From: Paracoccus bogoriensis
GTDB taxonomy: Bacteria > Pseudomonadota > Alphaproteobacteria > Rhodobacterales > Rhodobacteraceae
Assembly (NCBI RefSeq): GCF_019431455.1
Contig: NZ_JAHYSR010000005.1
Span: 62,001 to 126,000, forward strand
Reading direction: 5' to 3'
DNA: 64,000 bases
The notes beneath the pieces are model-generated. The model searched no databases and was not told where the DNA came from. It saw only the letters and a list, made by a program, of their open reading frames with translations. Shown in pieces: positions 22,935 through 32,664 of the stretch; position 1 is the stretch's first letter, and every line of letters begins with the position of its first letter. A program made the position numbers and the translations under genes.

Positions 22935-23972
22935 ATGTCCCTGCCCGTATCCCCCGTCCTGAAGGCGCTGAACGACATCGCGCGCGACCGTATCCTGATC
23001 CTCGACGGGGCGATGGGAACGCAGATCCAGAACCTCGGCCTGACCGAAGAGGATTATACCGGCCATGCCTCGGGCCATCCCTGCCCCCACCACACAGATC
23101 ACCCGCAGAAGGGCAATAACGACCTGCTGATTCTGACCCAGCCCGAGGCGGTCGAGGATATCCATTACCGCTACGCCATCGCGGGCGCCGATATCGTCGA
23201 GACGAACACCTTTTCGGCGACCACCATCGCGCAGGCGGATTACGGTCTGCAAGAGGCTGTGACCGACCTGAACGTCGAAGGTGCCCGCATTGCGCGCCGC
23301 GCGCTGGACCGCGCAACAGCCCGGGACGGGCGCCCCCGCTTCGTTGCGGGTGCCATCGGGCCGACGAACCGCACGGCCTCGATCAGCCCCGACGTGAACA
23401 ATCCCGGTTTTCGCGCGACCAGTTTCGAGGAATTGCGCGTGGCCTATCTGCAACAGGCGCGCGGCCTGATCGCGGGCGGCGCCGACATCCTGCTGATCGA
23501 GACGATTTTTGACACGCTGAACGCCAAGGCCGCGATCTTCGCCTGCAATCAGGCGATGGAGGAACACGGCCTTGCCTTGCCGCTGATGATCTCGGGAACG
23601 ATCACGGATGCTTCGGGGCGCACCCTGTCGGGGCAGACGCCCACGGCCTTCTGGTATTCGGTGCGCCATGCCCGGCCCTGGACAATCGGCCTGAATTGCG
23701 CGCTTGGCGCCGAGGCGATGCGCCCGCATCTGGCCGAGCTTTCGGGCGTCGCCGAGACGCTGATCTGCGCCTATCCGAATGCCGGCCTGCCCAATGCCTT
23801 CGGCCAGTATGACGAGGGCCCGCAGGACACCGCCCGGCAGGTCGCCGAATTCGCTCGCGAAGGTCTTGTCAACGTCGTGGGCGGCTGCTGCGGCACCACG
23901 CCCGACCATATCCGCGCCATAGCCGAAGCCGTTGCGGGCTTCACCCCCAGGAAGGTGCCCGCCTATGCCTGA
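22935..23972 (+). CDS. metH: Methionine synthase, homocysteine-binding module (split MetH, part 1)
   Basis: 345 residues equal to the N-terminal domain of cobalamin-dependent methionine synthase. It has [11 protein letters not shown] and [13 protein letters not shown], and the three zinc-ligand cysteines in GLNCALG and [10 protein letters not shown]. It ends right after the barrel ([18 protein letters not shown]), where intact MetH continues into the folate domain. The next gene supplies the rest in another frame with an 8-base overlap and its own AGGAAGG, so both halves are probably made stoichiometrically. Symbol given for the split gene as a whole. The start [19 protein letters not shown] has the expected distance to the barrel. 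Confidence 0.93.
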
Positions 23973-26697
23973 GCGTCTTTTGCGTCTTTCGGGTCTGGAA
24001 CCCTTCACGCTGACCCCCGACATTCCCTTCGTGAATGTGGGCGAGCGCACGAACGTCACCGGCAGCGCGCGTTTCCGCAAGCTGATCAAGGAACGCGACT
24101 ACGCCGCCGCGCTGGAAGTTGCCCGCGAGCAGGTCGAGAACGGCGCCCAGATCATCGACATCAACATGGATGAGGGGTTGATCGACAGCCGCGCGGCCAT
24201 GGTCGAGTTCCTGAATCTCGTCGCGGCCGAACCAGACATCGCGCGCGTGCCGATCATGATCGACAGCTCCAGGTGGGAGGTGATCGAGGCGGGCCTGCAA
24301 TGCGTTCAGGGCAAGCCGGTGGTCAACTCCATCAGCCTGAAGGAGGGCGAAGAGCAATTCCGCCATCAGGCGCGGCTGTGCCTGGCCTATGGCGCCGCCG
24401 TCGTGGTCATGGCCTTCGACGAACAGGGCCAGGCCGACACTGCCGCCCGCAAGATCGAGATCTGCCAGCGTGCCTACAACATCCTGGTCACCGAGGTCGG
24501 CTTTCCGCCCGAGGATATCATCTTCGACCCCAACATCTTTGCCGTAGCGACCGGGATCGAGGAGCACGACAATTACGGCGTCGATTTCATCGAGGCGACA
24601 CGCTGGATCCGCCAGAACCTGCCTCATGCCCATGTCTCGGGGGGCGTCTCGAATCTCAGCTTCAGCTTTCGCGGCAACGAACCCGTGCGCGAGGCCATGC
24701 ACGCGGTGTTTCTCTACCACGCCATTCAGGCGGGGATGGATATGGGCATCGTCAATGCGGGCCAATTGGCGGTCTATGACCAGATCGACCCCGAACTGCG
24801 CGAAGCCTGCGAGGATGTCATCCTGAACCGCAAGCCTCGCACGGGCGGTAGCGCGACCGAACGCCTGCTGGAGATTGCCGAGCGCTTCCGCGGGGACGGT
24901 GGCGGCGCCAGACGCGAAAAGGATCTGTCCTGGCGCGAATGGCCGATCGAGAAGCGCCTGGAACATGCCTTGGTCAACGGTATCACCGAATATATCGAGG
25001 CCGATACCGAGGAGGCCCGGCGACAGTCCGAACGCCCGCTGCACGTCATCGAAGGGCCGCTGATGGCTGGCATGAACGTCGTCGGCGACCTCTTCGGCGC
25101 GGGCAAGATGTTCCTGCCGCAGGTGGTGAAATCCGCCCGCGTGATGAAACAGGCCGTCGCAGTCCTGCTGCCCTATATGGAGGAGGAAAAGCGCCTTTCG
25201 GGTGGCGAGGGCCGCGAATCCGCCGGCAAGGTTCTGATGGCCACGGTCAAGGGCGACGTTCACGACATCGGCAAGAACATCGTGGGCGTCGTGCTGGCCT
25301 GCAACAATTTCGAGGTGATCGACCTTGGCGTGATGGTCCCCCCCCAGAAGATCCTGCAGGTCGCGCGCGAGGAAAATGTGGACATCATCGGCCTTTCGGG
25401 CCTCATCACGCCCTCGCTGGACGAAATGGTGCATCTGGCCTCGGAGATGGAGCGCGAGGGTTTCGACATCCCGCTGCTGATCGGCGGCGCGACCACCTCC
25501 AAGATTCACACCGCGGTCAAGATCGCGCCCCGCTACACGCGCGGGCAGGTGGTCTATGTGACCGATGCCAGCCGCGCGGTCGGTGTCGCCTCGGCGCTGA
25601 TGTCGCCGACGCAGCGGGCCGATTACGTCGCGGGGATCCGCGCGGAATATGCCGAGGTGGCCGAACGCCATGAACGATCCGAGGCCGCGAAAAGCCGCCT
25701 GCCTCTGGCCGCGGCCCGCGCCAATGCCCTCTGCCTGGACTGGGCGTCCTACAAGCCGGTTGCGCCTTCGTTCACGGGAGCCCGCGTGATCGAGGACTGG
25801 GATCTGGCTCGGATTGCCCAGTATATCGACTGGACGCCCTTTTTCCAGACCTGGGAACTGAAAGGCGTTTATCCCCGCATCCTCGAAGACGAGGCGCAGG
25901 GCCCCGCCGCCCGGCAGCTTTTCGCCGAGGCGCAGGAGATGCTGTCGCGCCTCATCGCGGGCAAATGGTTCCGCCCCCGCGCCGTGCTGGGTTTCTGGCC
26001 CGCCAATGCCGAAGGCGACGATATCCGCTTGTGGACCGATGCCCAGCGCAGGACACCCCTGGCCACGCTACACACGCTGCGCCAGCAGGTGACCAAGCGC
26101 AATGGCCGCCCGAATGTGGCCCTGTCGGATTTCGTGGCGCCCGAGGGCATCCCCGACCACGTCGGCGGCTTCGTCGTCACCGCCGGCCCCGAAGAGGCCG
26201 AGATCGCCGCCCGCTACGAGCGCGCGAATGACGATTACGGGGCGATCATGGTCAAGGCCCTGGCCGACCGCATCGCCGAGGCCATGGCCGAGATGCTGCA
26301 CGAACGCGTCAGGCGAGAATTCTGGGGCTACGCTGCGGACGAGGCCTTCACCCCCGAGGAGCTGATCGCCGAACCCTACAAGGGCATCCGTCCCGCGCCG
26401 GGCTATCCGGCCCAGCCCGACCATACCGAAAAGCGGACGCTGTTCCGGCTGCTGGATGCCGAACAGGCGACCGGCGTGACGCTGACGGAAAGCATGGCGA
26501 TGTGGCCCGGCTCATCGGTCTCGGGCCTCTATATCGCCCATCCCGACAGCTATTATTTCGGCGTCGCCAGGATCGAGGAGGACCAGGCCCGCGACTATGC
26601 CGCCCGCAAGGGCTGGACGCTTGAAGAGGCCGAACGCTGGCTGGCGCCAATCCTCAATTACGACCCGGCTCGACGCACGGCCGATGCGGCGGCCTGA
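23965..26697 (+). CDS. metH: Methionine synthase, folate, cobalamin and reactivation modules (split MetH, part 2)
   Basis: 910 residues covering the rest of MetH. Domains: pterin-binding barrel ([26 protein letters not shown]), cap (about 320-400), B12 domain with GDVHDIGKN near residue 433 (His is the lower cobalt ligand), and the AdoMet-binding reactivation domain ([30 protein letters not shown]). It is therefore self-reactivating, unlike the minimal split MetH systems that need a separate reactivase. The start ATG 23965 sits inside the last codons of part 1, behind AGGAAGG. Both parts total 1255 residues, close to E. coli MetH (1227). Confidence 0.95.
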
Positions 26698-28358: not shown

Positions 28359-29639
28359 TCACGCGGTTTTCATCGGCCGACCGGCAACATAGGTCTGCAC
28401 CACCGCACGGTCGTCGCCCATGATCTGCAGGATGAACAATTCCTCGGCCAGGGTGGCCGCGCGTTCGGCGCGCAACGCCATGGCAGGTGTCGCGCGCGGG
28501 TCCAGAACGACCAGATCGGCGGCACTGCCCGGCGCAAGGGTGCCGATCTCGGCCTCGAGTCCGAGAGCCAGCGCATTGCCGCGCGTCGCCCAGTGGAAGG
28601 CCGCCAGCGGATGCAGTTTCTGGCCGCGCATCTGCAGAACCTTGTAGCCCTCGTTAAGGGTCTGCAACATCGACCAGCTGGTGCCGCCGCCGATATCGGT
28701 CGCGATCCCGCTGACGATCCCCGCCGCCCGCAACCTCCGTTCGTCGAAGAGGCCCGAGCCCAGAAACAGGTTCGAGGTCGGGCAGAAGACGGCGCGGCTG
28801 CCTGTCTCGGCCATGCGCGCGATCTCTCGCGTTTCCAGATGGATCGAATGGCCCAGCAGGGTTTTCCGGCCCAGAAGGCCGTGCGTCTCGTAGATGTCGA
28901 GGTAATCGCGCGCCTGAGGATGGAGGCTTAGCGTATAGGCGATCTCGTCGCGGTTTTCGGAAAGATGTGTCTGGACATGACAATCGGGATGCTCGGCGGC
29001 CAGCGCGCCCGCCGCGGCCAGTTGTTCGGGCGTCGAGGTGATGGCAAAGCGCGGCGTGATCGCGTAGCGCTGTCGGCCTTGGCCGTGCCAGGTCTCGATC
29101 AGCGCCTTGCTGTCGTCATAGGCGGATTGCGCCGTGTCATGGATCGCGGGAATGGCGTTGCGGTCCATCATCACCTTGCCCGCGATCATGGCCATGTCAC
29201 GGGCATGGGCAGCGGCAAAGAGCGCCTCGGCGCTGGTCCTGTGGCTGGAGCAGAAGGCGACGGCGGTCGTTGTGCCATGTGCCAGCAGCTGGCCGAGGAA
29301 GAGGTCCGCCATGCGGGCGGCATGGGAGGGGTCGCCGAATTCGGCCTCGGCCGGAAAGGTGTAGGTGTTCAGCCAGTCCAGAAGCTGGGCGCCCCAGCTG
29401 GCGATGACCTGAAGCTGGGGGAAATGGATATGCGGATCGATGAAGCCCGGCAGGATCAGATGCGGGCGGTGGTCGATCTGGGACAGGCCGTCGCGGGCCA
29501 GATCGGTGTGATCCCCGACCGCGAGGATGCGGCCATCCTGAACCAGGATCGCGCCATCTTCATGGTAGCGGTGGCTGAGGTCGGTTTCGGACGGGTCGGC
29601 GAAGAAGTCGAGGACGCGGCCCCGGATCAATTGTTGCAT
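28359..29639 (-). CDS. guaD: Guanine deaminase
   Basis: Hydrolyses guanine to xanthine, the substrate of the XDH encoded just upstream. The 426-residue amidohydrolase has the metal motif PGFIDPHIHFPQL, the guanine-deaminase hallmark FCPTSNLFLGSGLF, the substrate-loop QTHLSENRDEI and the late metal Asp in ATDIGGGTSWSML. It starts within the last codons of xdhC (13-base overlap) and is the last gene of the minus-strand operon xdhA-xdhB-xdhC-guaD. Confidence 0.95.
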   Translation of the reverse strand: MQQLIRGRVLDFFADPSETDLSHRYHEDGAILVQDGRILAVGDHTDLARDGLSQIDHRPHLILPGFIDPHIHFPQLQVIASWGAQLLDWLNTYTFPAEAEFGDPSHAARMADLFLGQLLAHGTTTAVAFCSSHRTSAEALFAAAHARDMAMIAGKVMMDRNAIPAIHDTAQSAYDDSKALIETWHGQGRQRYAITPRFAITSTPEQLAAAGALAAEHPDCHVQTHLSENRDEIAYTLSLHPQARDYLDIYETHGLLGRKTLLGHSIHLETREIARMAETGSRAVFCPTSNLFLGSGLFDERRLRAAGIVSGIATDIGGGTSWSMLQTLNEGYKVLQMRGQKLHPLAAFHWATRGNALALGLEAEIGTLAPGSAADLVVLDPRATPAMALRAERAATLAEELFILQIMGDDRAVVQTYVAGRPMKTA

Positions 29640-30358
29640 GGGTATTTGTTCAACGGAGAAGAGGTGAGGCGCGCCATCAATTCGGCGGCGGTGAAGGTGG
29701 CGATGATCGCGGGGCGCTTGTCGCGCGAGAAGCCGGCGCCGATCGGGCAGGTCAGGGGCGCGGGGTCGAGGCCGCGGTCGCGGGCGAAGCGGGTGAATTG
29801 CGCGCGTTTCGTGGCGCTGCCGATCATGCCGATATAGGTGAGGTCGGGACGGGCCAGCGCCTCGGCGGCCAGCAGGAAGTCCAGCGCGTGGTCATGGGTC
29901 AGGATGATGACGGCCGTGCCGGGGCGGGCGGCGCGGATTTGCACCTCGGGTAGCGGTGTCAGCAGTGTGGGGCCGACGGCGCGAGCCAGCTCCTCGGCGC
30001 GGCTGTCGATCAGCAGCGCGTTGACCGGCAGATGCTGGAGGAGCGCCGAGAGCGCGCGCCCGACATGGCCCGCGCCGAAGATCAGCACGTCGGGATGATC
30101 CGGCGGGCTCGCCGCCTGGCGGTCGAGGGACAGGACCACGCGGCCGCCGCAGCATTGTCCGATCTCGGGGCCGAGGGAGATCTCCATGCGGGCCATCTGT
30201 TCGCCGCGCGCCAGCATCTGGCGGGCGCGGTCGATGGCCATGTATTCCAGCTGGCCGCCGCCGATGGTGCCCTGCGTGGCGTGGGAGGTCACGATCATCT
30301 CGGCCCCCGCCTCGCGCGGGGTGGACCCGCGCGCGGATATGACCCGGACGCGGATCAT
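29627..30358 (-). CDS. xdhC: Xanthine dehydrogenase accessory protein XdhC
   Basis: Molybdenum-cofactor-binding chaperone that inserts sulfurated Moco into XdhB. 243 residues: VISARGSTPREAGAEMIV and GTIGGGQLEYMA at the N-terminus, GQCCGGRVVLSLD, and the Rossmann part VLIFGAGHVGRALSALLQHLP. The ATG overlaps the xdhB stop (ATGA). Compared with many XdhC, which carry about 20 residues before VxxARGSxPRE, this one starts almost at the motif (MIRVRVISARG). No better start exists without entering xdhB. Confidence 0.92.
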   Translation of the reverse strand: MIRVRVISARGSTPREAGAEMIVTSHATQGTIGGGQLEYMAIDRARQMLARGEQMARMEISLGPEIGQCCGGRVVLSLDRQAASPPDHPDVLIFGAGHVGRALSALLQHLPVNALLIDSRAEELARAVGPTLLTPLPEVQIRAARPGTAVIILTHDHALDFLLAAEALARPDLTYIGMIGSATKRAQFTRFARDRGLDPAPLTCPIGAGFSRDKRPAIIATFTAAELMARLTSSPLNKYPCNN

Positions 30359-32664
30359 CCGCGCAGCCGCTCTACCGCCATCAGCACGCGTTCGGGCGTG
30401 GCGGGGGCGTCCAGGCGGGCGGGTTCGCGGTAATCCGCGACCGAGGCCACGGCCATGTTGATCGCCTCGAAGACACTGATGCCCAGGACGAAGGGCGGCT
30501 CTCCGACGGCCTTCGAGCGTTTGATGGTCCGCTCGGTCGCTTCGGACCAGTCGGCCAGCGCGACGTTGAAGATGCGCGGCCGGTCCGAGGCCAGCGGCAC
30601 CTTGTAGGTCGAGGGCGCATGGGTCCGCAGCCGGCCCTTGTCGTCCCACCACAGTTCCTCGGTGGTCAGCCAGCCGGCGCCCTGCACGAAGGCGCCCTCG
30701 ACCTGGCCCCGGTCCAGCGCAGGGTTCAGGCTGCGGCCCACGTCATGCAGGATGTCGGCGCGGTCGATGACATATTCGCCGGTCAGCGTGTCCACCGAGA
30801 CCTCGGACACCGCCGCGCCATAGGCAAAGTAATAGAACGGCCGCCCCTGCCCCGTGGTCCGGTCCCAATGGATCTTGGGCGTCTTGTAGAAGCCCGCCGC
30901 CGACAAATGGATGCGCGCCATATAGGCCGCCCGGATCACCTGATCGAAGACGATCATCTGGTCGCCCGCCCGCACATGGCCCGGAACGAAGGCCACCTGA
31001 TCCTCGGCGACCTTCCAGTTTTCCGCGACGAAAGCCGTCAGACGCGCCTTGATCTGATTGGCCGCGTCCAGCGCCGCCATGCCGTTCAGGTCGGTCCCGG
31101 ACGACGCCGCCGTGGCCGAGGTGTTCGGCACTTTCTCGGTCGTCGTCTTCGTGATCCTGATACGGCTGATGTCGCATTGGAACGCCTCGGCCACGATCTG
31201 GGCGACCTTGGTGTTCAGGCCCTGCCCCATCTCGGTCCCGCCATGGTTCAGGTGGATCGAGCCGTCAGAATAGATGTGGATAAGCGCGCCCGCCTGATTG
31301 AACCAGGTTGCGGTGAAGCTGATGCCGAACTTCACCGGCGTCAGGGCGATGCCCTTGCGGATCACGCCGCCGCGCGCGTTCCAGTCCAGCACCGCCTGCC
31401 TGCGGGCCTGATAGTAGCTGCTCTGCTCCAGCTCCGCGATCAGGCGCGGCAGGATCTGGTCCTGCACCTCCTGGTGATAGGGGGTCAGCTGGCCATTCTG
31501 ATAGAGGTTGCGCTTGCGCACCTCCAACGGGTCGAGGCCCAGGGCATAGGCGATCTCTTCGACCATCCGTTCGGCCATGATCGCGCCCTGCGGCCCGCCG
31601 AAGCCCCGAAAGGCCGTGTTGCTGACCGTGTTCGTGCGCATCGGATGCGAGGACAGCCGCACATCGGGATAGAAATAGGCGTTGTCGGCGTGAAACAGCG
31701 CCCGGTCCGTGACGGGGCCGCTGAGATCCGCCGAAAACCCGCAGCGGGCATAGAGATCGCCCTCCACCGCCCGGATGCGGCCTTCGTCGTCGAAGCCCAC
31801 GGCATAGTCGATCACGAAGTCATGCCGCTTGCCGGTGGCGGTCATGTCGTCGTCGCGGTCGGGGCGGATCTTGACCGCGCGGTGCCAGCGCTTGGCCGCC
31901 ACGGCGGCCACGCAGGCAAAGAGGTTCATCTGCGTCTCCTTGCCGCCGAAGCCCCCGCCCATGCGGCGCACATTCACCACGACCGCGCTGCTGGGCACGC
32001 CCAGGACATGGGCGACCATGTGCTGCACCTCGGACGGGTGCTGGGTCGAGACATGCAGCGCGACCTCGTCATCCTCGCCCGGAATGGCCAGGGCGATCTG
32101 CCCCTCCAGATAGAAGTGATCCTGCCCGCCCACGGCAAAGCGCCCGGTGATCCGGCGCGGCGCATCGGCCATGGCCACCGCCGCATCGCCGCGACGCAGG
32201 GTCAGCGGATCGGTCACATAGCCCATCCCCGCATCCCGCGCCGCGATCGGGTCCAGAACATGGGGCAGCGCGTCATAGTCGATCCGCGCCTTATGCGCCG
32301 CGCGCCGCGCCTGGTCGCGGGTTTCCGCGATGACGGCAAAGACCGGCTGCCCCCAGAAATGCACCACCCCATCGGCCAGGATCGGGTCATCATTCATGCC
32401 ATTGGGCGACACATCGTTGACGCCAGGCAGGTCATCGGCGGTCAGCACACCCAGCACGCCGGGCTGGGCCAGCGTGTCGGTGAAATCCATCCCCGTGATG
32501 CGCCCATGCGCGCAGGTGGACAGGCCCAGATAGGCGTGGATCGTGCCGGTCGGCTCTACCAGATCGTCGGTATAGTCCGCACGGCCCGTGACATGCTTGA
32601 TGGCGCTGTCGTGGATGGTGTCCTGATGGGCCTGGCCGGCGATGGGGGCGGCGTCGTCCTTCAT
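30355..32664 (-). CDS. xdhB: Xanthine dehydrogenase molybdopterin-binding (large) subunit
   Basis: Catalytic subunit oxidising hypoxanthine and xanthine to urate. 769 residues: HVTGRADYTDDL at the start, Moco-binding RRMGGGFGGKETQ, FRGFGGPQGA, NHGGTEMGQGLNTK, and the catalytic glutamate in KAVGEPPFVLG near the end. It has the two-polypeptide bacterial layout, with XdhA carrying the Fe-S and FAD domains. Three bases separate it from xdhA, and it overlaps xdhC by ATGA. The long open frame on the opposite strand here is a codon-bias shadow. Confidence 0.96.
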   Translation of the reverse strand: MKDDAAPIAGQAHQDTIHDSAIKHVTGRADYTDDLVEPTGTIHAYLGLSTCAHGRITGMDFTDTLAQPGVLGVLTADDLPGVNDVSPNGMNDDPILADGVVHFWGQPVFAVIAETRDQARRAAHKARIDYDALPHVLDPIAARDAGMGYVTDPLTLRRGDAAVAMADAPRRITGRFAVGGQDHFYLEGQIALAIPGEDDEVALHVSTQHPSEVQHMVAHVLGVPSSAVVVNVRRMGGGFGGKETQMNLFACVAAVAAKRWHRAVKIRPDRDDDMTATGKRHDFVIDYAVGFDDEGRIRAVEGDLYARCGFSADLSGPVTDRALFHADNAYFYPDVRLSSHPMRTNTVSNTAFRGFGGPQGAIMAERMVEEIAYALGLDPLEVRKRNLYQNGQLTPYHQEVQDQILPRLIAELEQSSYYQARRQAVLDWNARGGVIRKGIALTPVKFGISFTATWFNQAGALIHIYSDGSIHLNHGGTEMGQGLNTKVAQIVAEAFQCDISRIRITKTTTEKVPNTSATAASSGTDLNGMAALDAANQIKARLTAFVAENWKVAEDQVAFVPGHVRAGDQMIVFDQVIRAAYMARIHLSAAGFYKTPKIHWDRTTGQGRPFYYFAYGAAVSEVSVDTLTGEYVIDRADILHDVGRSLNPALDRGQVEGAFVQGAGWLTTEELWWDDKGRLRTHAPSTYKVPLASDRPRIFNVALADWSEATERTIKRSKAVGEPPFVLGISVFEAINMAVASVADYREPARLDAPATPERVLMAVERLRG

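Follow-up and report, generated by a model that had tools for sequence, protein, structure and literature searches.

The window, by which we mean the whole 64,000-nucleotide stretch of Paracoccus bogoriensis DNA that was analysed, carries on its plus strand two adjoining genes that together encode the domains of a cobalamin-dependent methionine synthase (MetH):

22935..23972, plus strand: metH part 1, 345 amino acids, ATG start, TGA stop; homocysteine S-methyltransferase (zinc) domain, PF02574
23946..23982, plus strand: stretch matching Linker I (the Hcy:Fol linker) and holding the cut, by Thermus MetH alignment and the limits described in PMC10567725; residue mapping putative
23949..23955, plus strand: AGGAAGG, ribosome-binding site of part 2, formed by the linker's Arg-Lys codons
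23965..23972, plus strand: 8-nt overlap ATGCCTGA, containing both the start of part 2 and the stop of part 1; seen also in relatives
23965..26697, plus strand: metH part 2, 910 amino acids from ATG 23965; folate-binding, B12 cap, B12-binding and AdoMet reactivation domains

The initial annotation had proposed two overlapping genes in place of a single metH, the second with its own AGGAAGG and start, and both open reading frames, their overlap and the motif were found as claimed. The two parts lie in different reading frames and share 8 nt; since part 1 stops at 23970-23972 in a frame other than that of part 2, the locus does not encode the single polypeptide of one-chain MetH. AGGAAGG stands nine bases upstream of ATG 23965, and a longer option offered by the ORF tool, starting from TTG 23932, seems the less likely start because ATG 23965 is the one kept in relatives.

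Pfam assigns PF02574 only to part 1 and, to part 2, PF00809, PF02607 and PF02310 together with the reactivation domain PF02965, which the initial annotation had rightly described as retained. On the NCBIfam metH profile TIGR02082 (1182 positions), part 1 covers 2-322 and part 2 covers 327-1182, and the two therefore join without a missing piece. A two-part split MetH is thus what the locus presents: PF02574 in a gene of its own adjoining the gene with the remainder, a profile covered without overlap or loss, and the same split in relatives. In the one-chain MetH of Escherichia coli, human and Thermus all domains follow in the same order, but there on one polypeptide. Part 2 alone exceeds the cut-offs of TIGR02082 (1233.8 bits against 1010.85) and NF007024 (1595.5 against 1497), whereas part 1 alone remains below both (466.1 and 518.6 bits, respectively), so that annotation may miss that part 1 is one half of the enzyme.

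Site motifs are in register in alignments of the parts to solved MetH, and the zinc, B12 and AdoMet site motifs of the one-chain enzyme are all present, the roles of the ligands being our assumption. Across the split loci, LNCA (74/75), GGCCG (75/75), DxHDIG (75/75), GLSGLIT (74/75), RPAPGYP (75/75) and AMWPG (73/75) are kept; we take LNCA and GGCCG in part 1 to be the zinc-ligand motifs and those of part 2, DxHDIG and RPAPGYP among them, to mark the B12 and AdoMet sites. Both parts are under purifying selection, with median dN/dS values of 0.107 for part 1 and 0.134 for part 2 in split Paracoccus loci, and of 0.162 and 0.165 for the corresponding parts of fused ones (150 random pairs each, from 50 of the 54 split loci, four having been dropped where the script did not find the anchor motifs, and 49 fused).

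The genome contains one match to part 2, that is, one MetH, with no second MetH or second corrinoid-protein match to part 2, and one MetF. PF01717, one of the two Pfam domains of MetE, was not found in it; a control search found this domain in 10 of 14 genomes. Scanning the entire window against Rfam at gathering thresholds gave no match, so no described riboswitch lies there. Elsewhere in the window, at 28359-29639 and 29627-30652 on the minus strand, a guanine deaminase-like gene adjoins a xanthine dehydrogenase accessory protein-like frame, as judged by eye from the translations.

Position of the cut and structure models

According to the description in PMC10567725, the Hcy and Fol barrels of MetH move as one rigid body, zipped together by Linker I (Pro342-Asn352). 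An alignment to chain 9cbr of Thermus MetH places Pro338 of part 1 near position 342 and residue 6 of part 2 near 352; taking the count of this chain to equal the numbering of that paper, the cut would therefore lie inside Linker I. The initial annotation had placed it in the linker after the zinc domain, in agreement with this mapping.

The AF2 model of part 1 (mean pLDDT 87.8) shows a barrel ending in a helix at 323-333, followed by a tail at 334-345 without helix or strand, and that of residues 1-320 of part 2 (mean pLDDT 82.9) forms short strands in the LSGLEPF region, at 7-9 and 13-15. The sequence matches to solved MetH were already decisive.

Split and fused metH in Paracoccus and beyond

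Judged by open frame, 125 Paracoccus genomes divide into 55 with split, 57 with fused, one with disrupted and five with fragmentary MetH (G022, G093, G096, G099 and G101), and seven without MetH (G080, G081, G086, G097, G100, G107 and G124), of which G086, 71% complete, gave no match whatever. Identity is at least 82% for the split forms and at most 81% for the fused. We fetched 106 of the loci (56 split or disrupted, 50 fused) and classified them by a script using the position and frame of both parts, in agreement with the open-frame reading; the other seven of the 57 fused ones were judged by open frame. Among the 56 split or disrupted loci, 53 have the 8-nt overlap, two have a 4-nt overlap and one (G051) is disrupted. 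Three of the 53 (L025, L112 and L115) have 15 extra bases in part 2 behind the stop of part 1, and in another (L126) the contig starts within part 1.

The initial annotation had called for comparison with relatives, naming a single frame in them as grounds for taking the split as an error. The nearest relative (95% identity) has an identical junction and the closest relatives are split likewise; a single frame is found in relatives only in the sense that another Paracoccus clade has the fused form. RpoB trees of 40 chosen Paracoccus genomes require one split/fused change in the protein tree, for which supports were not printed, and three in the DNA tree, which carried composition warnings; the state within the genus looks to be mostly inherited vertically. 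Movement of the split form between Paracoccus species by transfer was considered and set aside, as the RpoB trees mostly fit vertical descent.

Two Paracoccus loci stand somewhat apart. One (L136, G051:C2:74587-79082) is the split metH with both halves disrupted, through either decay or poor sequence; the other (L137, G062:C1:1785627-1790054) is a second, foreign-looking split metH (63% identity) in a genome that also has a pair cut at the usual site.

Beyond the genus, two cut positions can be told apart by the side on which LSGLEPF stays: with the folate part at site A, as here, and with the homocysteine part at site B, as in L137. The 325 metH loci collected, a set that is not random and in which Paracoccus is over-represented, comprise 167 fused, 86 site-A split (before LSGLE) and 48 site-B split (after LSGLE), and further nine variant-LAG splits (site B by eye), eight with a distant or broken upstream part, six without an upstream Hcy domain and one without an anchor motif. 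The family sample gave a MetH match beyond corrinoid hits of about 35% in 25 of 149 genomes. One family genome (G241) has two site-A pairs, both with 4-nt overlap (L138 and L144); its assembly is 84% complete and genome mixing is possible. Six loci from genomes of the phylum (L305-L309 and L323) have a part 2-like MetH for which no homocysteine domain was found just upstream, and part 1 may lie elsewhere.

All 64 near-full-length matches at 58-72% identity that the class sample (192 genomes) gave besides the locus itself were classified: 19 are fused and 45 split, the latter being 38 site B, four variant B, two with part 1 further upstream and one site A. Most of the alphaproteobacterial splits examined outside Rhodobacteraceae are cut about 15 residues later than here, after LSGLEPF. 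A further 36 class-sample genomes have a distant MetH (31-35% identity to part 2 at nearly full coverage) in frames of at least 1155 amino acids, apparently one-chain; these count against the split as a rule for the class, and apparently represent a second MetH lineage in it.

In a FastTree phylogeny of 316 rows, the Rhodobacteraceae site-A sequences, 76 in all, group as a single clade (support 99) nested among fused sequences from Rhodobacteraceae and Hyphomicrobiales. For this tree nine of the 325 loci were omitted (six duplicates, L105, L136 and L325), and distant and no-Hcy loci counted as split. The clade includes L042, from a metagenome bin that carries the label Sphingomonadales. The frame relation within this clade may be an 8-nt overlap, a 4-nt overlap or the same frame after a gap (L042, L139). 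Site-A splits outside Rhodobacteraceae, from the phylum loci L301-L304 and L320, branch apart from it. The tree implies at least 15 fused/split changes, or 18 with the sites told apart; an IQ-TREE analysis of 62 picked rows gives 11, of which at least eight are forced by well-supported branches, and unites the 12 sampled Rhodobacteraceae site-A members on one branch (SH-aLRT 99). In both counts the direction of change (split or re-fusion) is resolved for the Rhodobacteraceae clade only. Taken together, these comparisons indicate that the split is real and old, and stable in its clade.

On one reading of the wider pattern, MetH breaks preferentially at Linker I, since the two domains connected there never separate, and this joint can repeatedly be replaced by non-covalent contact with LSGLEPF on either side. 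We hold this only tentatively, at somewhat short of an even chance: our estimate is lowered by the Bacteroides thetaiotaomicron enzyme, which is cut elsewhere, with a separate reactivation domain in the description given in PMC7311316, and by our locus searches, which used part 2 as the query and would mostly show cuts at the front of part 2.

The second start and rival readings

Immediately before the second ATG, the Arg of the linker Pro-Arg is encoded by AGA, AGG or CGA in 59 of the 75 split loci and in 2 of the 61 fused ones, against a background among Arg codons of the same genes of 5.0% (306/6133) in split and 3.0% (144/4743) in fused genes; within Paracoccus alone the counts are 48/54 and 2/49. 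The sample consists of 75 site-A split loci of at least 78% identity and 61 fused loci of the same family, and in these counts, as in those of pairing energy below, the rows are related rather than independent. Over the 20 bases upstream, mean pairing energy with the 16S tail is -7.92 for the 75 split loci, and the 61 fused loci average -3.12 at the equivalent position; the second start of the present locus has -10.4. For 1500 random coding stretches taken from the split genes the mean is -5.54, and as the split median is reached by 21% of these stretches, pairing energy alone is not extreme; at the corresponding place, fused genes pair more weakly than random stretches. The use of rare Arg codons to form its ribosome site indicates that the second start is under selection.

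These data bear on three readings that compete with a two-subunit enzyme. The one that survives best, though it remains improbable, holds that the zinc subunit also serves another methyl donor or corrinoid protein, the split allowing reuse of subunit 1. A free Hcy-domain protein of Phaeobacter, Bmt, does use betaine and DMSP in vitro, as described in PMC12366255; against such reuse, the genome lacks a second corrinoid-protein match to part 2, and part 1 fits the metH models better than the betaine model, on which it reaches 121.9 bits against a cut-off of 338. Rather less probable still is a programmed ribosomal frameshift that would continue to yield a fused enzyme: the frames do overlap at the end of part 1, yet the way they relate varies within one clade, which contains 8-nt overlaps, 4-nt overlaps and same-frame arrangements with a stop and a gap, and the second start has both a ribosome site and an ATG. 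A sequencing error or recent frameshift in a single metH, which the meeting of two frames in a linker might suggest and against which the GapMind description warns in general (adjacent pieces are often ambiguous between split and frameshifted; PMC7311316), is extremely unlikely in view of the identical 8-nt overlap in 53 of 56 fetched Paracoccus split loci from separate assemblies, the differing overlaps within one clade and the codon choice at the second start. A pseudogene reading of the split metH was also considered and rejected.

Proposed working and relation to described split synthases

We consider it very probable that the locus specifies a functional two-subunit cobalamin-dependent methionine synthase, a reading in which the two polypeptides, their complex and its activity are deduced from the genes. 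The two genes would form one operon giving two proteins; translation of part 2 would begin at a ribosome-binding site of its own, within the end of part 1, and would probably be coupled to termination of part 1. Contact between the subunits would most likely be made where the homocysteine and folate barrels, a rigid pair in one-chain MetH, face each other. B12 in subunit 2 would then shuttle the methyl group from methyl-folate on subunit 2 to homocysteine on subunit 1, and the C-terminal domain of subunit 2 would reactivate oxidised B12 with AdoMet. The two-part enzyme would thus most likely work as one-chain MetH does, with the rigid Hcy:Fol joint made non-covalent. The occurrence of split and fused metH within one genus offers a natural pair for asking what the Hcy:Fol linker does.

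Comparable arrangements have been described elsewhere. GapMind reports a two-part MetH in Burkholderia phytofirmans PsJN (BPHYT_RS02310 and BPHYT_RS02305), among nine MetH splits held genuine since relatives share them and not all of one kind, as a Bacteroides example illustrates (PMC7311316); a split into metH a and b is also mentioned for Burkholderia in PMC4364669. The B. phytofirmans enzyme resembles ours in having the zinc domain alone, the folate, B12 and reactivation domains in the other protein, and adjacent locus tags, a likeness in domain content and gene order drawn from the published description. Among Alphaproteobacteria, a two-part metH is described for Sphingomonas koreensis (PMC7857596), and Caulobacter crescentus MetH is given as CCNA_02221 plus CCNA_02222 (PMC6538847), which we read as two halves; on this reading all three are alphaproteobacterial two-part enzymes, and the descriptions of these two do not state the cut position. 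The rarity implied in the initial annotation does not hold, given 45 split among the 64 close-type alphaproteobacterial loci and the same split published for B. phytofirmans: the two-part MetH of Paracoccus is ordinary, splits in related bacteria being common and already described. A limited literature search found no description of the Paracoccus split itself, which may exist elsewhere.

The three-part synthase of Phaeobacter inhibens, as described in PMC5764234, has separate folate and B12 parts and lacks PF02965, in whose place DUF4445 and DUF1638 proteins are suggested to act; PMC12478193 argues that subunits of this type are not derived from MetH. The Paracoccus enzyme shares with it a separate homocysteine-domain protein, but here folate, B12 and PF02965 domains lie on one protein, and the RamA-like reactivase DUF4445 is absent from the genome (22 of 125 Paracoccus genomes have it). 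The contrast that the initial annotation drew with a minimal split MetH dependent on a separate reactivase is consistent with this difference. Six Paracoccus genomes (G080, G081, G097, G100, G107 and G124) lack MetH and show corrinoid-protein matches of about 35% only. Because five of these six, all save G097, carry DUF4445, methionine synthase seems to come in three kinds within the genus, namely fused, two-part and Phaeobacter-like.
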